A stretch of 64,000 nucleotides of DNA from Methanothrix thermoacetophila PT (lineage in GTDB: Archaea > Halobacteriota > Methanosarcinia > Methanotrichales > Methanotrichaceae), in NCBI RefSeq assembly GCF_000014945.1, contig NC_008553.1, positions 1,550,001 to 1,614,000 of the forward strand. Direction: 5' to 3'. The notes beneath the pieces are model-generated. The model was not told where the DNA came from, searched no databases, and worked only from the letters and a program-made list of their open reading frames with translations. The position numbers and the translations under genes were made by a program. Below are positions 2,204 to 43,958 of this stretch, piece after piece (position 1 is the first letter of the stretch; every line of letters starts with the position of its first letter).

Positions 2204-3430
2204 TCAAACAGGGCCGAAGCGGGCCTGTGTGGGCACGCTGAAGTTCGCGAGATCCTTGAGCCTGTAGTCCTGAAGCAGTATGCTCTTCAGCTTTGGCGGA
2301 TGAACACTCAGAGAGATCTCCTTCGTTCTTCCATAGCGCCCCTTGCTTATTACAACAGTGTGAAGAATGCCAAGCATATCAAGCTCGGCTATGAGATCCG
2401 TGATCCTCCTGTGTGTGAGCGATTCAACTTCGACAAGCGGGCAGAGCTGCTTGTACATGCCATAAACTGCACTCGTTGTTATGTTCCTGGCAGCCTGCTC
2501 CTCCAAGAGAAGGATGCTGTAGAGCACAAGCTTTGACTGCGTCGGTAGCGTCTTTATGACCTCCTCCACCCTATCCTGCTCGATCTTGTCCCGCGCTGCC
2601 TTCACATGCTCCTCGGTGATCATCTGGCTCCTTGCCCTCTCCGCGATCTCGCCTGCGATCCGGAGAAGGTCAAGCGCGCGTCGCGCATCACCATGCTCCC
2701 GCGCCGCAAAGGCCGCGCAGAGAGGTATGACATCATCCGCGAGCACGCCCGGCCTGAACGCCAGCTCAGCCCGCTGCTCCAGTATATCCTGTATCTGCTC
2801 CGCGTTGTAGGGCGGGAATATGATCTCGTCCTCGCCAAGCGAGGATTTCACTCTGGGATCCAGGAACTCGGTGAACTTCAGATCGTTCGATATGCCGATG
2901 AGGCTCACCCTTGCCTGGACCAGATCGGAGTTAATCCTGGAGAGGTTGTAAAGAACATCATCACCCTTCCTGACGAGCTTGTCGACCTCATCGAGCATTA
3001 TGACGACCACGCGCTTCTTCTCATCCAGCGCGTTCCTGAACTCCGAATAGACCTGATCGGTGGGCCAGCCGGTCATGGGAATATCCTTGTCGAAGTGCCT
3101 GGCGAGGTGTGCGAGTACCCTATACTGCGTATCGACAACCTCGCAGTTGAGGTATATGACAGAGCATGTAGACCCTGCATCCGCCTCTTCCAGCTCCTTG
3201 CCTACATACTTCGCGACGGCAGTCTTTCCCGTGCCGGTCTTTCCGTAGATGAGGATATTTGAGGGTGTCTCGCCGTGCAGGGCCGGAGCTAGGACTGATG
3301 CTAACTCCTGTATCTGCTCCTCTCTGTGGGGCAGCTCCTTTGGAGTGTAGGTGGAACGCAAAACGTCCCGCGACCTGAATATACCTCCTTGGCCGACAAA
3401 GCTGGCAAACAACCCGCTAGAAGTGGTCAC
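2204..3430 (-). CDS. cdc6: ORC1/Cdc6-type replication initiator
   Basis: This is an archaeal origin recognition AAA+ ATPase of about 408 residues, the usual family size. It should bind origin boxes and load the MCM helicase. The Walker A motif (GKTGTGKT) is near residue 64 of the chosen start. Walker B (VVVIMLDEVDKL), a sensor 1 region (LIGISND) and sensor 2 (HGDARRALDLL) follow. A winged-helix DNA-binding domain fills the last 120 residues. The longest frame begins with TTG at 3448, but GTG at 3430 has GAGGGAG six bases upstream and fits better. The region directly upstream carries two direct repeats that resemble ORB elements, so the gene probably sits beside its own origin. Confidence 0.93.
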   Translation of the reverse strand: MTTSSGLFASFVGQGGIFRSRDVLRSTYTPKELPHREEQIQELASVLAPALHGETPSNILIYGKTGTGKTAVAKYVGKELEEADAGSTCSVIYLNCEVVDTQYRVLAHLARHFDKDIPMTGWPTDQVYSEFRNALDEKKRVVVIMLDEVDKLVRKGDDVLYNLSRINSDLVQARVSLIGISNDLKFTEFLDPRVKSSLGEDEIIFPPYNAEQIQDILEQRAELAFRPGVLADDVIPLCAAFAAREHGDARRALDLLRIAGEIAERARSQMITEEHVKAARDKIEQDRVEEVIKTLPTQSKLVLYSILLLEEQAARNITTSAVYGMYKQLCPLVEVESLTHRRITDLIAELDMLGILHTVVISKGRYGRTKEISLSVHPPKLKSILLQDYRLKDLANFSVPTQARFGPV

Positions 3431-3489
3431 AAGAACTCCCTCGAACAATGCATCCTTGGCATGGATGGTATTAAGAGTTATGGTGATCT

Positions 3490-3536
3490 CCCCTTTATTT
3501 CCAGTGGAAGGGGACCAACCCCTTTATTTCCAGTGG
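3490..3536 (-). repeat. two ORB-like origin boxes
   Basis: Read on the minus strand, each box is CCACTGGAAATAAAGGGG, at 3490-3507 and 3519-3536, with a 29-bp period and the same orientation. The archaeal origin recognition box typically has TCCAGTGGAAAC or its equivalent followed by a G-run, and both parts are visible here. These are probable Orc1/Cdc6 binding sites. Confidence 0.6.
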
Positions 3537-3580
3537 AGATTGCCATACACACCGGCAGAGAATCGTGAGCCCGTATTTGC

Positions 3581-3767
3581 TCAGGCTCATGAGGCCTTAG
3601 AGTGATGAACTCTGTACAACCACCACGTAGCTGGAGATCCTGTTTGAAATCGTTCAGGCTCATGAGGCCTTAGAGTGATGAACTCTGTACAACCACCACG
3701 TAGCTGGAGATCCTGTTTGAAATCGTTCAGGCTCATGAGGCCTTAGAGTGATGAGCCATGTACAACC
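3581..3767. repeat. R-S-R repeat locus 1 (73-bp period)
   Basis: Two identical 73-bp units (3581-3653 and 3654-3726) are followed by a partial third copy of about 41 bp. This can be read as repeat-spacer-repeat-spacer-repeat with the same spacer of about 32 bp used twice. The third copy runs directly into a family E interspersed element. It may instead be part of origin architecture. Confidence 0.6.
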
Positions 3768-3822
3768 AGCATTAATCGCCTCTACCCATATGTAAGATTG
3801 CTGATTTGCCAAATCACAGGGG
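3765..3822 (+). repeat. interspersed repeat family E, copy 1
   Basis: The segment contains GATTGCTGATTTGCCAAATC followed by ACAGGG. Related segments occur near 13235-13268 and 53815-53880. No coding potential is seen. Confidence 0.5.
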
Positions 3823-3860
3823 GAATGCCACGACCAGTTATTCAAGCCAGCAATTCTGGA

Positions 3861-4280
3861 TCAAAGCTGTTTAAGTGCTCTGATCGCTATTTCAATGCAT
3901 TCTAGCTTTGACTTCAGGCTGGACAGATCCTGCTCGTTAGCTATACCTTTACACAGCTCCCTCAGCTTTGCATGAAGTGAGCTCCTCACGACTGCAAGAC
4001 ACTCTTTTTCATCATGGCTCCCCAGAGACGACGTAACTCCGACCTGGACTGTGCTTTCTGAAGGGTGTTTCTCTGAAACGCGCTTCTCCTCTTCTGGTAC
4101 TCTTCCAGTGGTCTCCTGCTCAACCCTCTCGGAAACTGAGCAGACCGGGCATATGATCTCGCCTTTATACCGGAAAAGCGGAGCTCCACAATCATGGTGC
4201 TCCGCGAGCATGGTACCGCCAATCTCCATCATTCTCGTGATGCGCCTGATCATCTCTTCTTCGTCCATTTTCTCGTTCAT
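3861..4280 (-). CDS. UPF0148 family zinc-ribbon protein
   Basis: This small protein of about 139 residues matches the archaeal UPF0148 / Sjogren-scleroderma autoantigen-like family. The N-terminal segment RITRMMEIGGTMLAEHH is followed by a zinc-ribbon with a CG..L....G...CPVC pattern at about residues 30-50. After it comes a Ser/Glu-rich linker and a C-terminal helical region of about 60 residues. The molecular role of the family is not established. The frame stays open to 4325, but ATG at 4280 gives the conserved family start and is preceded by AAAGGCG. A direct repeat (locus 2) lies just upstream. Confidence 0.75.
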   Translation of the reverse strand: MNEKMDEEEMIRRITRMMEIGGTMLAEHHDCGAPLFRYKGEIICPVCSVSERVEQETTGRVPEEEKRVSEKHPSESTVQVGVTSSLGSHDEKECLAVVRSSLHAKLRELCKGIANEQDLSSLKSKLECIEIAIRALKQL

Positions 4281-4313
4281 TTCCAATCGCCTTTGACACA
4301 GGAATCCATACCC

Positions 4314-4426
4314 ATGAAGGCTCATCTCCTCTCAAATTACCACGTATTCAAGCCTACCAGGTACGATCGTACCGACAGATCTAGCAAAATGAAGGCTCAT
4401 CTTCTCGAATTACCACGTCTTCAAGC
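4314..4426. repeat. R-S-R repeat locus 2 (75-bp period)
   Basis: A 40-bp segment (4314-4353) recurs at 4389-4426 with three substitutions and a 2-base gap. A non-repeated insert of about 35 bp lies between. The spacing matches the other R-S-R loci in this window. Confidence 0.55.
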
Positions 4427-4553
4427 TGAGTTGGTGTTCAGGAGCACAGATACGGCAGTTTTCCAGCACCTCCTTCCAGTCTTGCATTCCAGCTGGATGA
4501 GCCTCCACGAATTTATTGCTACCTGTCGCTTTTATCTTTTCGCTCTGATTGTC

Positions 4554-4644
4554 GGGACGTTTCCGAATGAGAGCTGAAGCCAGAAGTTTTGGCCTTACTG
4601 CTTTTGGACCGTTAAGATACTTAGTCTTTATTTGGACTAGTCCC
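4554..4644. mobile_element. MITE-like element, family B copy 1 (degenerate)
   Basis: About 90 bp match the family B pattern: an end like GGACntgTCCGAATAAG, an interior GGCCTTACTGCTTTTGGA, and the inverted end at the right. The copy is degenerate. Copy 2 follows directly. Confidence 0.5.
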
Positions 4645-4647
4645 AAG

Positions 4648-4740
4648 GTCTGAACCTGTTCGGATAATGATGATTTCAGAGATCTGTGGCTTAATCCTTT
4701 TTGATGGAGATGACACTCAATCCTTATTCAAATAGGTTCC
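4648..4740. mobile_element. MITE-like element, family B copy 2 (degenerate)
   Basis: The ends TGTTCGGATAATGA and CTTATTCAAATAGGTTCC are degenerate inverted repeats of the family B type. The interior shares the TTTTTGATGGAGAnnACnCTCAATCC pattern with the copy at 27236. Confidence 0.5.
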
Positions 4741-4826
4741 GAGGTCTGAACGTGTTCAAATAAGAAGCGAGATCCAAAATTATATGCTTTACAGCTCTTG
4801 TTTATCACAATAACTTTTTGCTTACG

Positions 4827-4935
4827 CTCTTATTCATATGATAACTTGCCCAAAGGGGCACTGGTCATGGTATGCGTTTGTGTCGAATGAATGAGTGCTA
4901 TCATCAACCACATCACATGCTCTACAAGTTGCTGC
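4827..4935 (+). repeat. interspersed repeat family C, copy 1 (uninterrupted)
   Basis: This non-coding repeat of about 108 bp begins GCTCTTATTCATATGATAAC and contains a GCACTGGTCATGG motif and an ACCACATCACATGC motif. It is the uninterrupted counterpart of the copy at 5913, which carries an extra 73 bp. Shorter relatives lie at 33634, 38263 and 52606. Confidence 0.6.
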
Positions 4936-5088
4936 GCACATAAGAACGTTTGCTTATTCGGGTAGAGACCTGAGGTCTCAACCATACTTTTAAATACAAC
5001 GATATACATGCAGAATACAAAGCTGAGGCGGGGACTGATCCTAAACCCTTTTGCAGCCCCAGAAAACGCAACGGTGGTGATTTTTATT

Positions 5089-5346
5089 ATGTCTGAAAAA
5101 GTGATAAAGCAATGTGTCGAGATTTTGGAGCGGATAATGAGCGACGATACTGTGCCAAGGAACATTAGGCGCTCTGCAGAGAACGTCAAGGGCATACTTC
5201 TCCAGGAAGGTCTCGCCGAAGCGGTGAAAGCAGCTTCAGCAATATCCATACTTGACGAGATAAGCAACGATCCGAATATTCCCCTTCACACAAGAACGCT
5301 GATATGGAATGTTGCAAGCCAGCTTGAGACGATACCTGTCAGCTGA
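5089..5346 (+). CDS. UPF0147 family protein
   Basis: This all-helical 85-residue protein matches the archaeal UPF0147 family. The conserved stretches [20 protein letters not shown] and [17 protein letters not shown] are present along its length. The function of the family is unknown. The frame is open from 5008, but the upstream residues are not family-like. ATG at 5089 gives the usual length and follows a GGTGGTGAT stretch. A long gene-free region follows. Confidence 0.8.
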
Positions 5347-5799
5347 AACACAAAACATACATGCGATCTTCCTGGAGTTTGGTATTTGGTGTGCACTCAC
5401 GTCACTGAGATCCGCAGCATTCAGCCAGCTGGCCTCGGAGAACGCCTCTTGCGTGGACGTGGCTTCAGCGAGATCGTCAGGCTATCAGAGGCCTGATCAG
5501 AGCCCGCAACCTAATAGCGATAGAGCATCAAAAGCGCTATCAACAGCCATCAGTAATTATCAGTGATCAACTTCCACTACCTCCACTGACAGCTCTCATG
5601 CGATTTACCGAGACCGTTGGCTGTTTTGTGCTTTCGTGACTGCGCCAGAATCTGCTAAACGTCTCAGGCCAAATGTCTGCTGGTGACAGACCTACAGGAC
5701 TGCCCGGCCGCGTAATTCAGGGCCTGCCCTGATGAGAGGTCGTGTGGTTGTATTACGGAAACCCCGCATGCAATAAAAAAGAGATGGATGAAAGCGTCT

Positions 5800-5907
5800 G
5801 AGATGATCTCTTTCAAAAATGTGCTGCTGCAGGATTTCCAGCTGCGGCTATCTTCTCCAGCAGACTTGCTCCGAGATGGTCTCTTCCAAAAACATGCCAC
5901 TGCAGGA
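5800..5907. repeat. R-S-R repeat locus 3 (73-bp period, diverged)
   Basis: A segment of about 35 bp (5800-5834) recurs at 5873-5907 with about seven differences. Between them lies a 38-bp non-repeated insert. The divergence suggests it is older than loci 1, 4 and 5. Confidence 0.45.
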
Positions 5908-5912
5908 GGTCG

Positions 5913-6100
5913 CTCTTATCCATTTGATGACTTGCCCGAAGGAGCAGTGGTCATGCTATGCGTTCGTGTCGAATGAAGGAATGTTATCGCCAACCACATC
6001 GCAGATACAGAGCAGGAAAGCGCGCGAAGACAGCCAGAGAGTCGAATGAAGGAATGTTATCGCCAACCACATCGCATGCCCTACAAGTTGCCACGCATTA
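5913..6100 (+). repeat. interspersed repeat family C, copy 2 (interrupted)
   Basis: This copy has the same order of motifs as copy 1 at 4827. It differs by an additional 73 bp consisting of a 36-bp duplication and a 37-bp foreign segment (locus 4). Confidence 0.6.
5968..6076. repeat. R-S-R repeat locus 4 (36-bp repeat, 37-bp insert)
   Basis: A 36-bp sequence at 5968-6003 is repeated without a mismatch at 6041-6076. The 37-bp segment 6004-6040 lies between them. The family C copy at 4827 runs through the equivalent position without duplication or insert and so serves as the empty site. Confidence 0.75.
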
Positions 6101-6121
6101 TATGAGCGCAGGAGGGTAATC

Positions 6122-6231
6122 CTAAGTGTCGTGGTCTTAGGATCACCTTGGGTTGAGGTTCATTCTGGCGTTTCGAAGTGCCCAGAGCTTCAAGCTAATT
6201 GTCGTGGTCTCAGGATCACCTTGGGTTGAGG
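6122..6231. repeat. R-S-R repeat locus 5 (37-bp repeat, 36-bp insert)
   Basis: The 37-bp segment 6122-6158 recurs at 6195-6231 with two differences. The 36-bp insert 6159-6194 has no match that I can see elsewhere in the window. Confidence 0.65.
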
Positions 6232-6400
6232 GGCATCGCATGTGGAGGAGCGGCTGCTGAAGCAGTCGGTGCTCCTACGACAGTAGAAGCATATCGGATG
6301 ACCGGATAGCAGAAGTCCTCGACTCCGTCGAGAGGCTTCGATGTAGTTGGAAGTAATCGAAGCGCAGAAAGCCCCGCCCTTCAGGGCGGGCGGGAACTTG
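6232..6400 (+). mobile_element. relic of an IS200/IS605 right end (omega-RNA-like)
   Basis: Three hairpins follow each other: a CCTCGAC/GTCGAG(AGG) stem near 6327, a CTTCGAT/ATCGAAG stem near 6339-6367, and CCCGCCC-TTCA-GGGCGGG at 6373-6390. Archaeal IS200/IS605 elements commonly end downstream of tnpB with such hairpins and a CCCGCCC...GGGCGGG stem. No tnpA or intact tnpB is present in the window, so this is at most a remnant. Confidence 0.45.
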
Positions 6401-6468
6401 CAGAAAAAAAGTTGTGCATTTGATCAGATCCATCCCGCAATGTCTCCATCGGAAATGAGGGGGTCCCT

Positions 6469-7230
6469 GTGTTCAGGTTTATCCCACTTATATGCGGTTT
6501 GTTGGCTCTGACGTTTGTTCAGGGGTGTGTTGAGCAAAAAGCTGCTGAGCAGAGCGGCTTTGTGGACGTCCATACGTATAAAAAGCTCGATCTCGAGTTC
6601 GAGTCCGGAATCTCCAGCGAGCTCTTCCGGGTATGGGGCACGCTGGACCTCACCTCCAACAGTTCCGAGCCTTATCTTCTGCTTGAGGCAGCTCTTTTGA
6701 GAGAAGGTCAGGAAGTCTTGCGGTCGAAATACCTGCTGATCGATGTGGCTCCAGGTCAGACTGCATTCGAGTTCTCAAAGGCTGCAAGACTGTACCCTGG
6801 CAGGGGCTACACATGCCGCCTTGTGGTTTCTGATGCTGATGGCCCAATTCAAAGCGCCGAGCGTACAGTTCATATCCTGGAGAGCAGCCTGGAAGAGTCG
6901 ATATATCCGCCGTCGCTTTCATTCAGTGAGCCTGCCGAAGCGCCGGCCAGAAATGGGGATGATACCGCGGAAGATCAGGAAGATCGATCTGAGGAGGATG
7001 AGACAGGAAAAAATACGAAAGATGACGAAGCAGGTCTCAATGTCACAGACAGATCTGCAGAGCCTGGGCAGGATGGTGCGAAGTACGTCGGGAGCGCCAC
7101 CTCCAGGAAATACCATCTTCCAGATTGCCGGTACGCCAGGAAGATAAAGCCTGAGCACCTTGTAGTCTTCTCGAGCAAGGAGGAGGCAGAAGCCAGAGGG
7201 TATGAGCCATGCAAGGTGTGCAATCCCTGA
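6469..7230 (+). CDS. lipoprotein with C-terminal Ada-like metal-binding motif
   Basis: This 253-residue secreted protein begins with a lipoprotein signal (hydrophobic stretch, then FVQGC, lipidated Cys20). Residues 30-145 form a probable beta-sandwich. Residues 150-200 are an acidic low-complexity linker rich in Glu, Asp and Lys. The last 45 residues (YVGSATSRKYHLPDCRYARK ... GYEPCKVC) resemble the Ada zinc-binding fold often found at the end of thermonucleases and surface proteins. The cysteines at positions 221, 247 and 250 could bind metal or act in DNA or redox chemistry; the function is unknown. The start is GTG, with GAGGGGGT five bases upstream. Confidence 0.75.
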   Translation: MFRFIPLICGLLALTFVQGCVEQKAAEQSGFVDVHTYKKLDLEFESGISSELFRVWGTLDLTSNSSEPYLLLEAALLREGQEVLRSKYLLIDVAPGQTAFEFSKAARLYPGRGYTCRLVVSDADGPIQSAERTVHILESSLEESIYPPSLSFSEPAEAPARNGDDTAEDQEDRSEEDETGKNTKDDEAGLNVTDRSAEPGQDGAKYVGSATSRKYHLPDCRYARKIKPEHLVVFSSKEEAEARGYEPCKVCNP

Positions 7231-7640
7231 TACGAAGGGAGGTCTGAACTCTGGCTTCTCAGGAAAGGCGCTCTATTCCTCTACCCGTCGTTCGGTCATC
7301 GGGCCGTTCCGAACGCGGCGAAGGCTGGTTGCAGTCGGGGAGTTCGATGCACCTGCCTCCCCTTGAAACACCAGACTCCGGCGCCGATGATGACACCAGG
7401 TCTCTGAAATGTGATGAGCCCTATGAGTTCTGAGGCGCATGAAACCCCGCCCCTCAACTTTAGCGACAGCTGCAGGAGATTCATGCCCATCAACCAGGTA
7501 GTGGGGCGACGGACAAAAATTAACAGGCCTATAGATATCGATTTCGATGCCGATATTGTTCAAAATAACCACGCTCAGTGGAGCCAACCCTTTAGGATAA
7601 ACTCAATGAAGGTAGACTACCTGAGGTAAGACAGAGGGCT

Positions 7641-7821
7641 GTAACCATTCCCCAAGAACTCATAGCAGGACCAGAAATCCCCCAGGATAGCACAGATGCC
7701 GCGCCGGATGCACCGTAACCATTTCCCAAGAACTCATAGCAGGACCAGTGTGAGGGCAACGGTTGGGATTGTTCAACACCCAGAAAGGTAACCATTCCCC
7801 AAGAACTCATAGCAGGACCAG
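7641..7821. CRISPR. three-repeat CRISPR-like array (R-S-R locus 6)
   Basis: Three copies of a 34-bp repeat lie at 7641-7674, 7715-7748 and 7788-7821, with one mismatch in the middle copy. They begin GTAACCATTCCCCAAGAACT. The two spacers (7675-7714, 40 bp; 7749-7787, 39 bp) are unlike each other. The dimensions are those of a real CRISPR. No leader, no cas gene and no typical GAAA(C/G) repeat end is seen, so it could be an orphan array or two successive off-target integrations. Confidence 0.6.
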
Positions 7822-8033
7822 TGCCTCTCCGGATCGAGTCCTCAGATGGATCGGAGATCACTGCCTTAACTTGTGGCATGCAGAGCTGGGGGACTGTCCG
7901 TTCGGGACGTGGGAGGATCTCGCTTCGCTCTTGTGTGTTCAGCAACTTGGTTGGCATGCAAGTTGATCGATGATGCAATCATTCGTTTCCAAGAAGCGCA
8001 TTGCATGGCTGTCTCCACGGGCACAGATGGAAC

Positions 8034-8209
8034 CGTCTCAAAACATCCCGCTGCCATCGAGGGATAAAATCAGCACATGGAACCCGGATGCATGGCAGGA
8101 CACCATCTCACCGCCTTCACGGCTCTCATGCGGCGGCCATCGCTTCCTGGAACCCAAATGCATGGCAGGACACCGTCATACAGCCAGTTGCCGGCTGGTT
8201 TCGAGACGA
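8034..8209. mobile_element. MITE-like element, family A copy 2, interrupted
   Basis: The ends are CCGTCTCAAAA (left) and TTTCGAGACGAC (right). It is 176 bp long, about 70 bp longer than its relatives. That excess equals the period of the duplication at 8078-8177. Confidence 0.55.
8078..8177. repeat. R-S-R repeat locus 7 (70-bp period)
   Basis: A segment of about 30 bp (8078-8107, with ATGCATGGCAGGACACC) recurs at 8148-8177 with three differences, around an insert of about 40 bp. It lies inside the family A element at 8034 and explains that element's extra length. Confidence 0.55.
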
Positions 8210-16084: not shown

Positions 16085-16470
16085 CATTCTCCGCATTTAT
16101 CCTCTATCATCCCTTATACGAAGAAGAGCGCGAGAGAAGAAAAGATCCTCGAGCTCATTCTCCGCATTTATCCTCTATCATCCCTTATACGAAGAAGAGC
16201 GCGAGAGAAGAAAAGATCCTCGAGCTCATTCTCTGCATTTATCCTCTATCATCCCTTACACGAAGAAGAGCGCGAGAGAAGAAAAGATCCTCGAGCTCAT
16301 TCTCTGCATTTATCCTCTATCATCCCTTACACGAAGAAGAGCGCGAGAGAAGAAAAGATCCTCGAGCTCATTCTCTGCATTTATCCTCTATCATCCCTTA
16401 CACGAAGAAGAGCGCGAGAGAAGAAAAGATCCTCGAGCTCATTCTCCGCATTTATCCTCTATCATCCCCT
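16085..16470. repeat. 71-bp tandem repeat, 5.4 copies (R-S-R locus 8)
   Basis: Five full units of 71 bp start at 16085, 16156, 16227, 16298 and 16369. A partial sixth of about 30 bp starts at 16440. Units differ at only two or three positions. The partial copy covers just the first 30 bp, so it reads as repeat(30)-insert(41) with the same insert five times. 71 is not a multiple of three and no frame stays open. Confidence 0.85.
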
Positions 16471-38433: not shown

Positions 38434-38539
38434 GCCGAAGGATAAGGTCTACAGTTCGTCTCTCTTCAGACGCTATAGGACTGAACCTATCGGGGAAAAA
38501 CGCGGCCGAAGGATAAGGTCTGCAGTTTATCTTTCTTCA
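38434..38539. repeat. R-S-R repeat locus 9 (71-bp period)
   Basis: A 35-bp segment (38434-38468, beginning GCCGAAGGATAAGGTCT) recurs at 38505-38539 with about four differences. A 36-bp insert lies between. Confidence 0.55.
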
Positions 38540-38550
38540 TATACATATCC

Positions 38551-38658
38551 CCTTGGACGGAGGTATCCGAATAAGGATTAAGCGTCTTCCTGGAGCCGGC
38601 TTTGCTCGCCACGGCGGCAATCCTTGGACGGAGGTATCCGAATAAGGATTAAGCGTCT
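38551..38658. repeat. R-S-R repeat locus 10 (37-bp repeat, 34-bp insert)
   Basis: A 37-bp segment (38551-38587) recurs without a mismatch at 38622-38658. The repeated segment is the outer end of a family B element plus four flanking bases. The complete element continues only after the second copy. The 34-bp insert 38588-38621 is GC-rich and absent from other family B copies. Confidence 0.7.
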
Positions 38659-43847: not shown

Positions 43848-43958
43848 TGGCTCAGACCGATATATATCCTGCATTTTCTGCAAGTAGTCCCCATTGGCAT
43901 ATCTCTTGTGAAGAATGGCGGTGGCTCAGACCGGTATATATCCTGCATTTTCTGCAAG
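43848..43958. repeat. R-S-R repeat locus 11 at the 3' end of pstS
   Basis: A 37-bp sequence at 43848-43884 recurs with one change at 43922-43958. The second copy is the last coding codons and stop of the pstS gene (minus strand), plus a few bases. The 37-bp segment 43885-43921 between them is unique in the window. A duplicate of the gene end therefore lies downstream of the gene. Confidence 0.75.

Follow-up and report, generated by a model that had tools for sequence, protein, structure and literature searches.

Probable scars of off-target CRISPR spacer integration in the genome of Methanothrix thermoacetophila PT

The integration of spacers outside CRISPR arrays, leading to the generation of neo-CRISPR loci, is said to have been described by Nivala, Shipman and Church in 2018 (Nat Microbiol 3:310), reportedly in E. 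coli, with a small number of natural instances from Yersinia pestis and Sulfolobus islandicus. Such off-target integration is usually treated as a laboratory effect with few natural examples. Another related process is the integration of casposons, i.e. kilobase elements with inverted ends. They resemble the units described below in the target duplication and in the use of a Cas1-family enzyme (which we infer for the units), although their duplication is much shorter. Off-target integration in E. coli under overexpression of Cas1-Cas2 is cited in PMC11788318, and work on non-canonical spacer integration is likewise cited in PMC9456107. In vitro, Cas1-Cas2 of S. solfataricus shows an intrinsic preference for C or G at position +1 and for C at position -2 (PMC5815122).

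Here we describe a repeat-spacer-repeat unit located outside CRISPR arrays in the archaeon Methanothrix thermoacetophila PT, together with a large set of similar structures, referred to as ectopic units. The window, i.e. the whole 64,000-bp stretch of DNA that was analysed, comprises bases 1,550,001-1,614,000 of the complete 1,879,471-bp genome. Like the cases of Nivala et al., the units consist of short DNA placed outside arrays, with a duplicated target of repeat length, native sizes and sites resembling native junctions. Unlike those cases, which come from overexpression and a few natural examples, the units are natural, number about 60 per genome and have accumulated over time; moreover, they are lineage-specific, partly self-derived and clustered beside orc1/cdc6. 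Off-target spacer integration is a known process. Its natural density in this genome is new as far as the literature searched is concerned, in which we found no description of such a density, of preserved empty sites, of self-derived inserts or of an orc1/cdc6 cluster.

The reported unit and its host element

The initial annotation of this DNA had interpreted 37 bases within one copy of a repeat family (family C) as an insertion and the flanking 36 bases as its duplicated target, and had pointed to another copy, about 1 kb away, that reads through the insertion point. Closer analysis confirmed these statements. Direct comparison revealed 36/36 identity between 5968-6003 and 6041-6076, which are separated by 37 bp of unrelated sequence (6004-6040), while the neighbouring copy at 4825-4948 (85% identical to the reported one in a 93-nt block and 84% in the remainder) is uninterrupted. 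The probability that an exact 36-bp repeat occurs by chance at a given lag is negligible, and the unit is among the freshest in the genome.

Family C has the features of a MITE: its members are short (about 122 bp) and multicopy, have CGCTC...GAGCG ends and, in several copies inspected by eye, are flanked by an 8-9-bp duplication. There are 41 matches in the genome, including 4825-4948, 5911-6108 and 39 further ones. The longer form in several copies, named in the initial annotation as the finding that would speak against an insertion, was looked for in an alignment of 20 family-C loci and was present in the reported copy alone. As the remaining 19 of 19 copies are uninterrupted, the long form is derived. 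In addition, none of 63 contiguous (empty-form) alignments, some of which represent overlapping loci, carries an insert at this site.

Table 1. Coordinates of features within the window
Feature	Position	Strand	Characteristics
orc1/cdc6 replication initiator	2204-3448	-	Cdc6_C 1e-29, Cdc6_lid 4e-30; adjoins the densest cluster
Two direct copies of CCCCTTTATTTCCAGTGGA	3490-3537		origin-box-like repeats
Ectopic-type unit, tandem amplified	3581-3768		73-bp period, 2.6 copies; starts 44 bp past the origin-box-like repeats
Older decayed ectopic unit	4314-4426		about 38-40-bp copies, period 73-75
Empty-site family-C copy	4825-4948	+	uninterrupted at the insert position
Older decayed ectopic unit	5800-5907		35-bp copies sharing 83% identity, period 73
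Host element, family-C MITE-like repeat	5911-6108	+	about 122 bp when the insert is disregarded; ends CGCTC...GAGCG; roughly 8-bp flanking duplication
Target duplication, copy 1 (reported unit)	5968-6003		36 bp, identical to 6041-6076
Insert (putative ectopic spacer)	6004-6040		37 bp; single copy in its own genome; missing from other family-C copies
Target duplication, copy 2 (reported unit)	6041-6076		identical to 5968-6003
Ectopic unit	6122-6231		37-bp duplication, period 73
Two-spacer unit	7641-7823		two spacers of different sequence between three 34-36-bp repeats; periods 74 and 73
Ectopic unit (genome 1558078)	8078-8185		copies of 27-38 bp, period 70; related copies elsewhere are contiguous
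Tandem array	16085-16468		71-bp unit, 5.4 copies, nearly identical
Ectopic unit	38434-38539		35-bp copies, period 71
Fresh ectopic unit	38551-38658		identical 37-bp copies, period 71
Ectopic unit (genome 1593848)	43848-43958		37-bp copies, period 74; sister species align without the insert

Ectopic units in the genome and the native CRISPR systems

The window was scanned for direct repeats at each spacing from 30 to 200, and this lag scan detected a dozen unrelated repeat pairs, nearly all of them with a spacing of 70-74. In the 1.298 Mb sampled for units (69% of the genome) we identified 42 unrelated repeat-spacer-repeat units with a spacing of 70-79 (two further hits, one coding repeat and one copy in a duplicated region, were excluded), which extrapolates to about 60 units genome-wide. 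Each unit has a "repeat" of its own, and the set represents many independent events. All other lags (30-199) yielded 40 hits, mostly tandem arrays, coding repeats and harmonics of the counted units; a spacing of 70-79 nt is strongly over-represented. The median length of the duplication is 37 bp and the median period is 73. Only four of the first 30 units lie within ORFs of at least 200 aa, although such ORFs make up 74% of the bases (p=4e-12), as expected if insertions into coding sequences are purged.

Four units (window positions 3581 and 16085, genome positions 411577 and 1340928) consist of nearly identical 71-73-bp units in tandem, the latter two with 2.4 and 3.5 copies, respectively, and with a period of 71, as at 16085. 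Arrays of this type would be expected from recombination between unit repeats, and the one at 16085-16468 is probably an amplified ectopic unit. The two-spacer unit 7641-7823 is a possible neo-array that has grown once, by a second integration into the first scar. Several other structures were observed in the course of the analysis: (i) a sequence at 7383-7435 of the window that matches sR41, a family of C/D box sRNAs (65.5 bits, above the gathering score), (ii) a 37-bp direct repeat of period 86 (49 between the copies) at genome position 794666, outside the unit count, which may be an ectopic unit whose insert exceeds the usual length, and (iii) three consecutive copies of a segment of about 6.9 kb at about 1641513-1657754 of the genome, with an ectopic-like unit that was copied as part of the segment.

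Empty sites are preserved for other units as well. Those at genome positions 225685, 407364, 411577, 1063683 and 1558078 reside in dispersed repeats that have contiguous copies elsewhere in the genome. For others, the orthologous place is empty in related species: in 5/5 sister species for unit 466384 (85-90% identity across the junction, with a clean drawn alignment), in four for 1776224 and in one for 519633 (in both cases with contiguous BLAST alignments and a poor drawn multiple alignment), and in at least two for 1593848 (about 80% identity).

The genome contains two CRISPR arrays. The type I-B array runs from 670839, with its cas1 at 662160, and the type I-D array occupies 1696036-1700421, with its cas1 at 1694711; both modules encode cas1, cas2 and cas4. 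The repeats of both arrays are 37 bp long, the spacers mostly 34-39 bp, and the periods are 71-76. The CRISPR-like sizes remarked upon in the initial annotation are therefore those of the host's own systems: the 36-bp duplication of the reported unit is close to the native repeat length, and its 37-bp insert has the length of a native spacer. The units share these dimensions with the arrays, but differ from them in having unrelated repeats, no common leader and one or two spacers. The unit periods do not differ from those of the I-B array (Mann-Whitney p=0.79), whereas they do differ from those of the I-D array (Mann-Whitney p=0.0002). This match points to the I-B adaptation module, which would probably be the main source of the Cas1-Cas2 involved. 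Comparison of the native spacers with the unit inserts, as a possible source of the latter, gave no real match. We also considered the lack of a Csa3 regulator as a cause of leaky integration; this idea was rejected, since a Csa3-type protein is encoded, with a score above the cut-off, near the I-D array (1700512-1701105). In the native CRISPR array of one sister species (G002, L172 10208-12050) blocks of spacers recur in order, which suggests recombination within the array.

Some of the inserts are self-derived: for 6/42, another place on the chromosome is the likely source. The insert of unit 71069 corresponds to chromosomal positions 1074533-1074569 (identical over 35-37 nt), a stretch that is also conserved in sister species and is therefore probably a gene. 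The insert of unit 344742 shows a 94% match to a multicopy transposon-like gene of its own chromosome, and the matches for 411577, 225685, 1032372 and 1558078 amount to 91%, 85%, 84% and 83%, respectively; where identity is lower, the insert may be old or its source may have diverged. No consistent PAM could be discerned beside these sources, which are few and whose boundaries are ambiguous by 1-2 nt. The reported insert has no other match in its own genome, nor in 50 genomes of the order, in phage records or in GTDB contigs. In IMG/VR, searched with exact 19-21-mers from three inserts, one contig (L186, positions 221-240) is identical to the reported insert over its last 20 nt (3' half) but does not align with the remainder, and we treat this partial match as chance or a weak lead. 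The search of the insert proposed in the initial annotation thus provided neither a secure viral source nor a second copy in the host genome.

Five control genomes (632 kb in total) contained no isolated units, where 20 would be expected at the rate of this genome. Three of the controls are relatives that lack cas1 (372 kb) and two possess it (260 kb); since units are absent also from the latter, cas1 alone is not predictive. Within the genus, four units were identified in 197 kb of the sister species G003 and two in 160 kb of G005, and none in G001 (40 kb) or G002 (109 kb, native array aside). Judging from these counts, the process is a feature of the lineage and not of every cas1-bearing genome.

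Possible origin of the units

We interpret the unit 5968-6076 as a scar of off-target CRISPR adaptation, i.e. one product of recurrent off-target spacer integration in which Cas1-Cas2 would be the enzyme responsible (we assign this reading a probability of roughly 0.88). According to this model, Cas1-Cas2 loaded with a prespacer of about 37 bp would attack both ends of a stretch of about 37 bp of ordinary DNA (in this case a MITE) in place of the leader-repeat region of an array; the subsequent filling of the gaps would double that stretch. Some units might have been enlarged later: 7641-7823 through a second integration event, and the tandem identical units through recombination between their repeats.

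The junctions of the units support the involvement of Cas1. The two ends of each of 32 units whose duplications are well defined were pooled (64 junctions). C or G occupies position +1, the outermost base of the duplication, in 48/64 cases (p=1.2e-4), and C occupies position -2, the second flanking base, in 26/64 (p=0.008), a modest bias, with some boundaries blurred by mutation, that coincides with the preference of S. solfataricus Cas1-Cas2, although the latter was determined in the test tube, with type I-A proteins and plasmid targets (PMC5815122). The bias at +1 and +2 had been noticed in the first 50 junctions before the published preference was known to us, and the larger set was analysed afterwards. 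The test for C at -2 was taken from that publication (PMC5815122), this base having already been the commonest one there in the first junction set. An early reading, a GT dinucleotide at both unit ends, faded with more data (8/64, p=0.03), while the +1 C/G bias grew stronger.

Insertion accompanied by target duplication is the classic footprint of transposition, and the family-C host is itself MITE-like; the units could thus be considered very small transposable elements (or MITE-like inserts) generating an unusually long target duplication. Repeated inserts with conserved ends, typical of transposons, were not observed among the units: the inserts are unrelated to one another, all differ in sequence, have no common ends and, apart from the six with a chromosomal source, occur in single copy. 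To our knowledge, there is no transposon that combines a constant duplication of about 37 bp with a random payload of 33-41 bp, and we regard such an origin as highly improbable. It is also very unlikely that the units are duplications caused by replication slippage or break repair, with templated filler DNA and without any participation of CRISPR. Inserts copied from other chromosomal places and the tandem 71-73-bp arrays would fit this mechanism. Slippage or repair should, however, yield a broad spectrum of lengths, whereas the units adhere closely to the native CRISPR values in both duplication and period, and the base preference at the junctions equals that of Cas1.

The similar architecture, and the presence of two different spacers in 7641-7823, might suggest that the units are what is left of genuine CRISPR arrays that have since degenerated. 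Such remnants would have a few repeat types in common, whereas each of the units has its own repeat, whose sequence is found uninserted at the corresponding place in other copies or species. The repeat of the reported unit is local MITE sequence and differs from the native CRISPR repeats. Descent from arrays is therefore, in our opinion, extremely improbable, and the least probable of the explanations considered.

Off-target integration by Cas1-Cas2, our preferred explanation, would make this genome a useful natural record of the process. Dozens of scars, from fresh to decayed, with empty sites in sister copies or species, make its natural rate measurable, as well as the site preference, the source of prespacers and the fate of mis-integrated spacers. 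This bears on the birth of new CRISPR arrays and on the on-target control of Cas1-Cas2 in archaea, organisms without IHF. A simple lag scan could be extended to a survey of all genomes.

The cluster beside orc1/cdc6

The densest cluster comprises six counted units (including the reported one) and two decayed ones within 3581-8185, i.e. in 4.6 kb, against an expectation of 0.3 units per 10 kb (p about 1e-6, uncorrected for the choice of the densest place). The two copies of CCCCTTTATTTCCAGTGGA located upstream of orc1/cdc6 (Table 1) look like archaeal origin recognition boxes (ORB motifs), and together with this gene they constitute the probable replication origin of the genome; GC skew was too noisy to provide a clear signal in support of it. 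The clustering may mean either that the origin attracts integration or that the region merely tolerates insertions. A further version of the model assumes that off-target integration is directed, the I-B Cas1-Cas2 being drawn to the replication origin, and that some sites become working neo-CRISPR arrays gaining spacers, as the structure of 7641-7823 suggests. We consider this doubtful. In the sister species G003, an ectopic-like unit starting with GTCGC (L122, 14566-14673) lies within about 3 kb of the cdc6 gene of that species, and clustering near cdc6 may therefore be shared. A second, weaker Cdc6 match is present in the M. thermoacetophila genome at 1748225-1748440.
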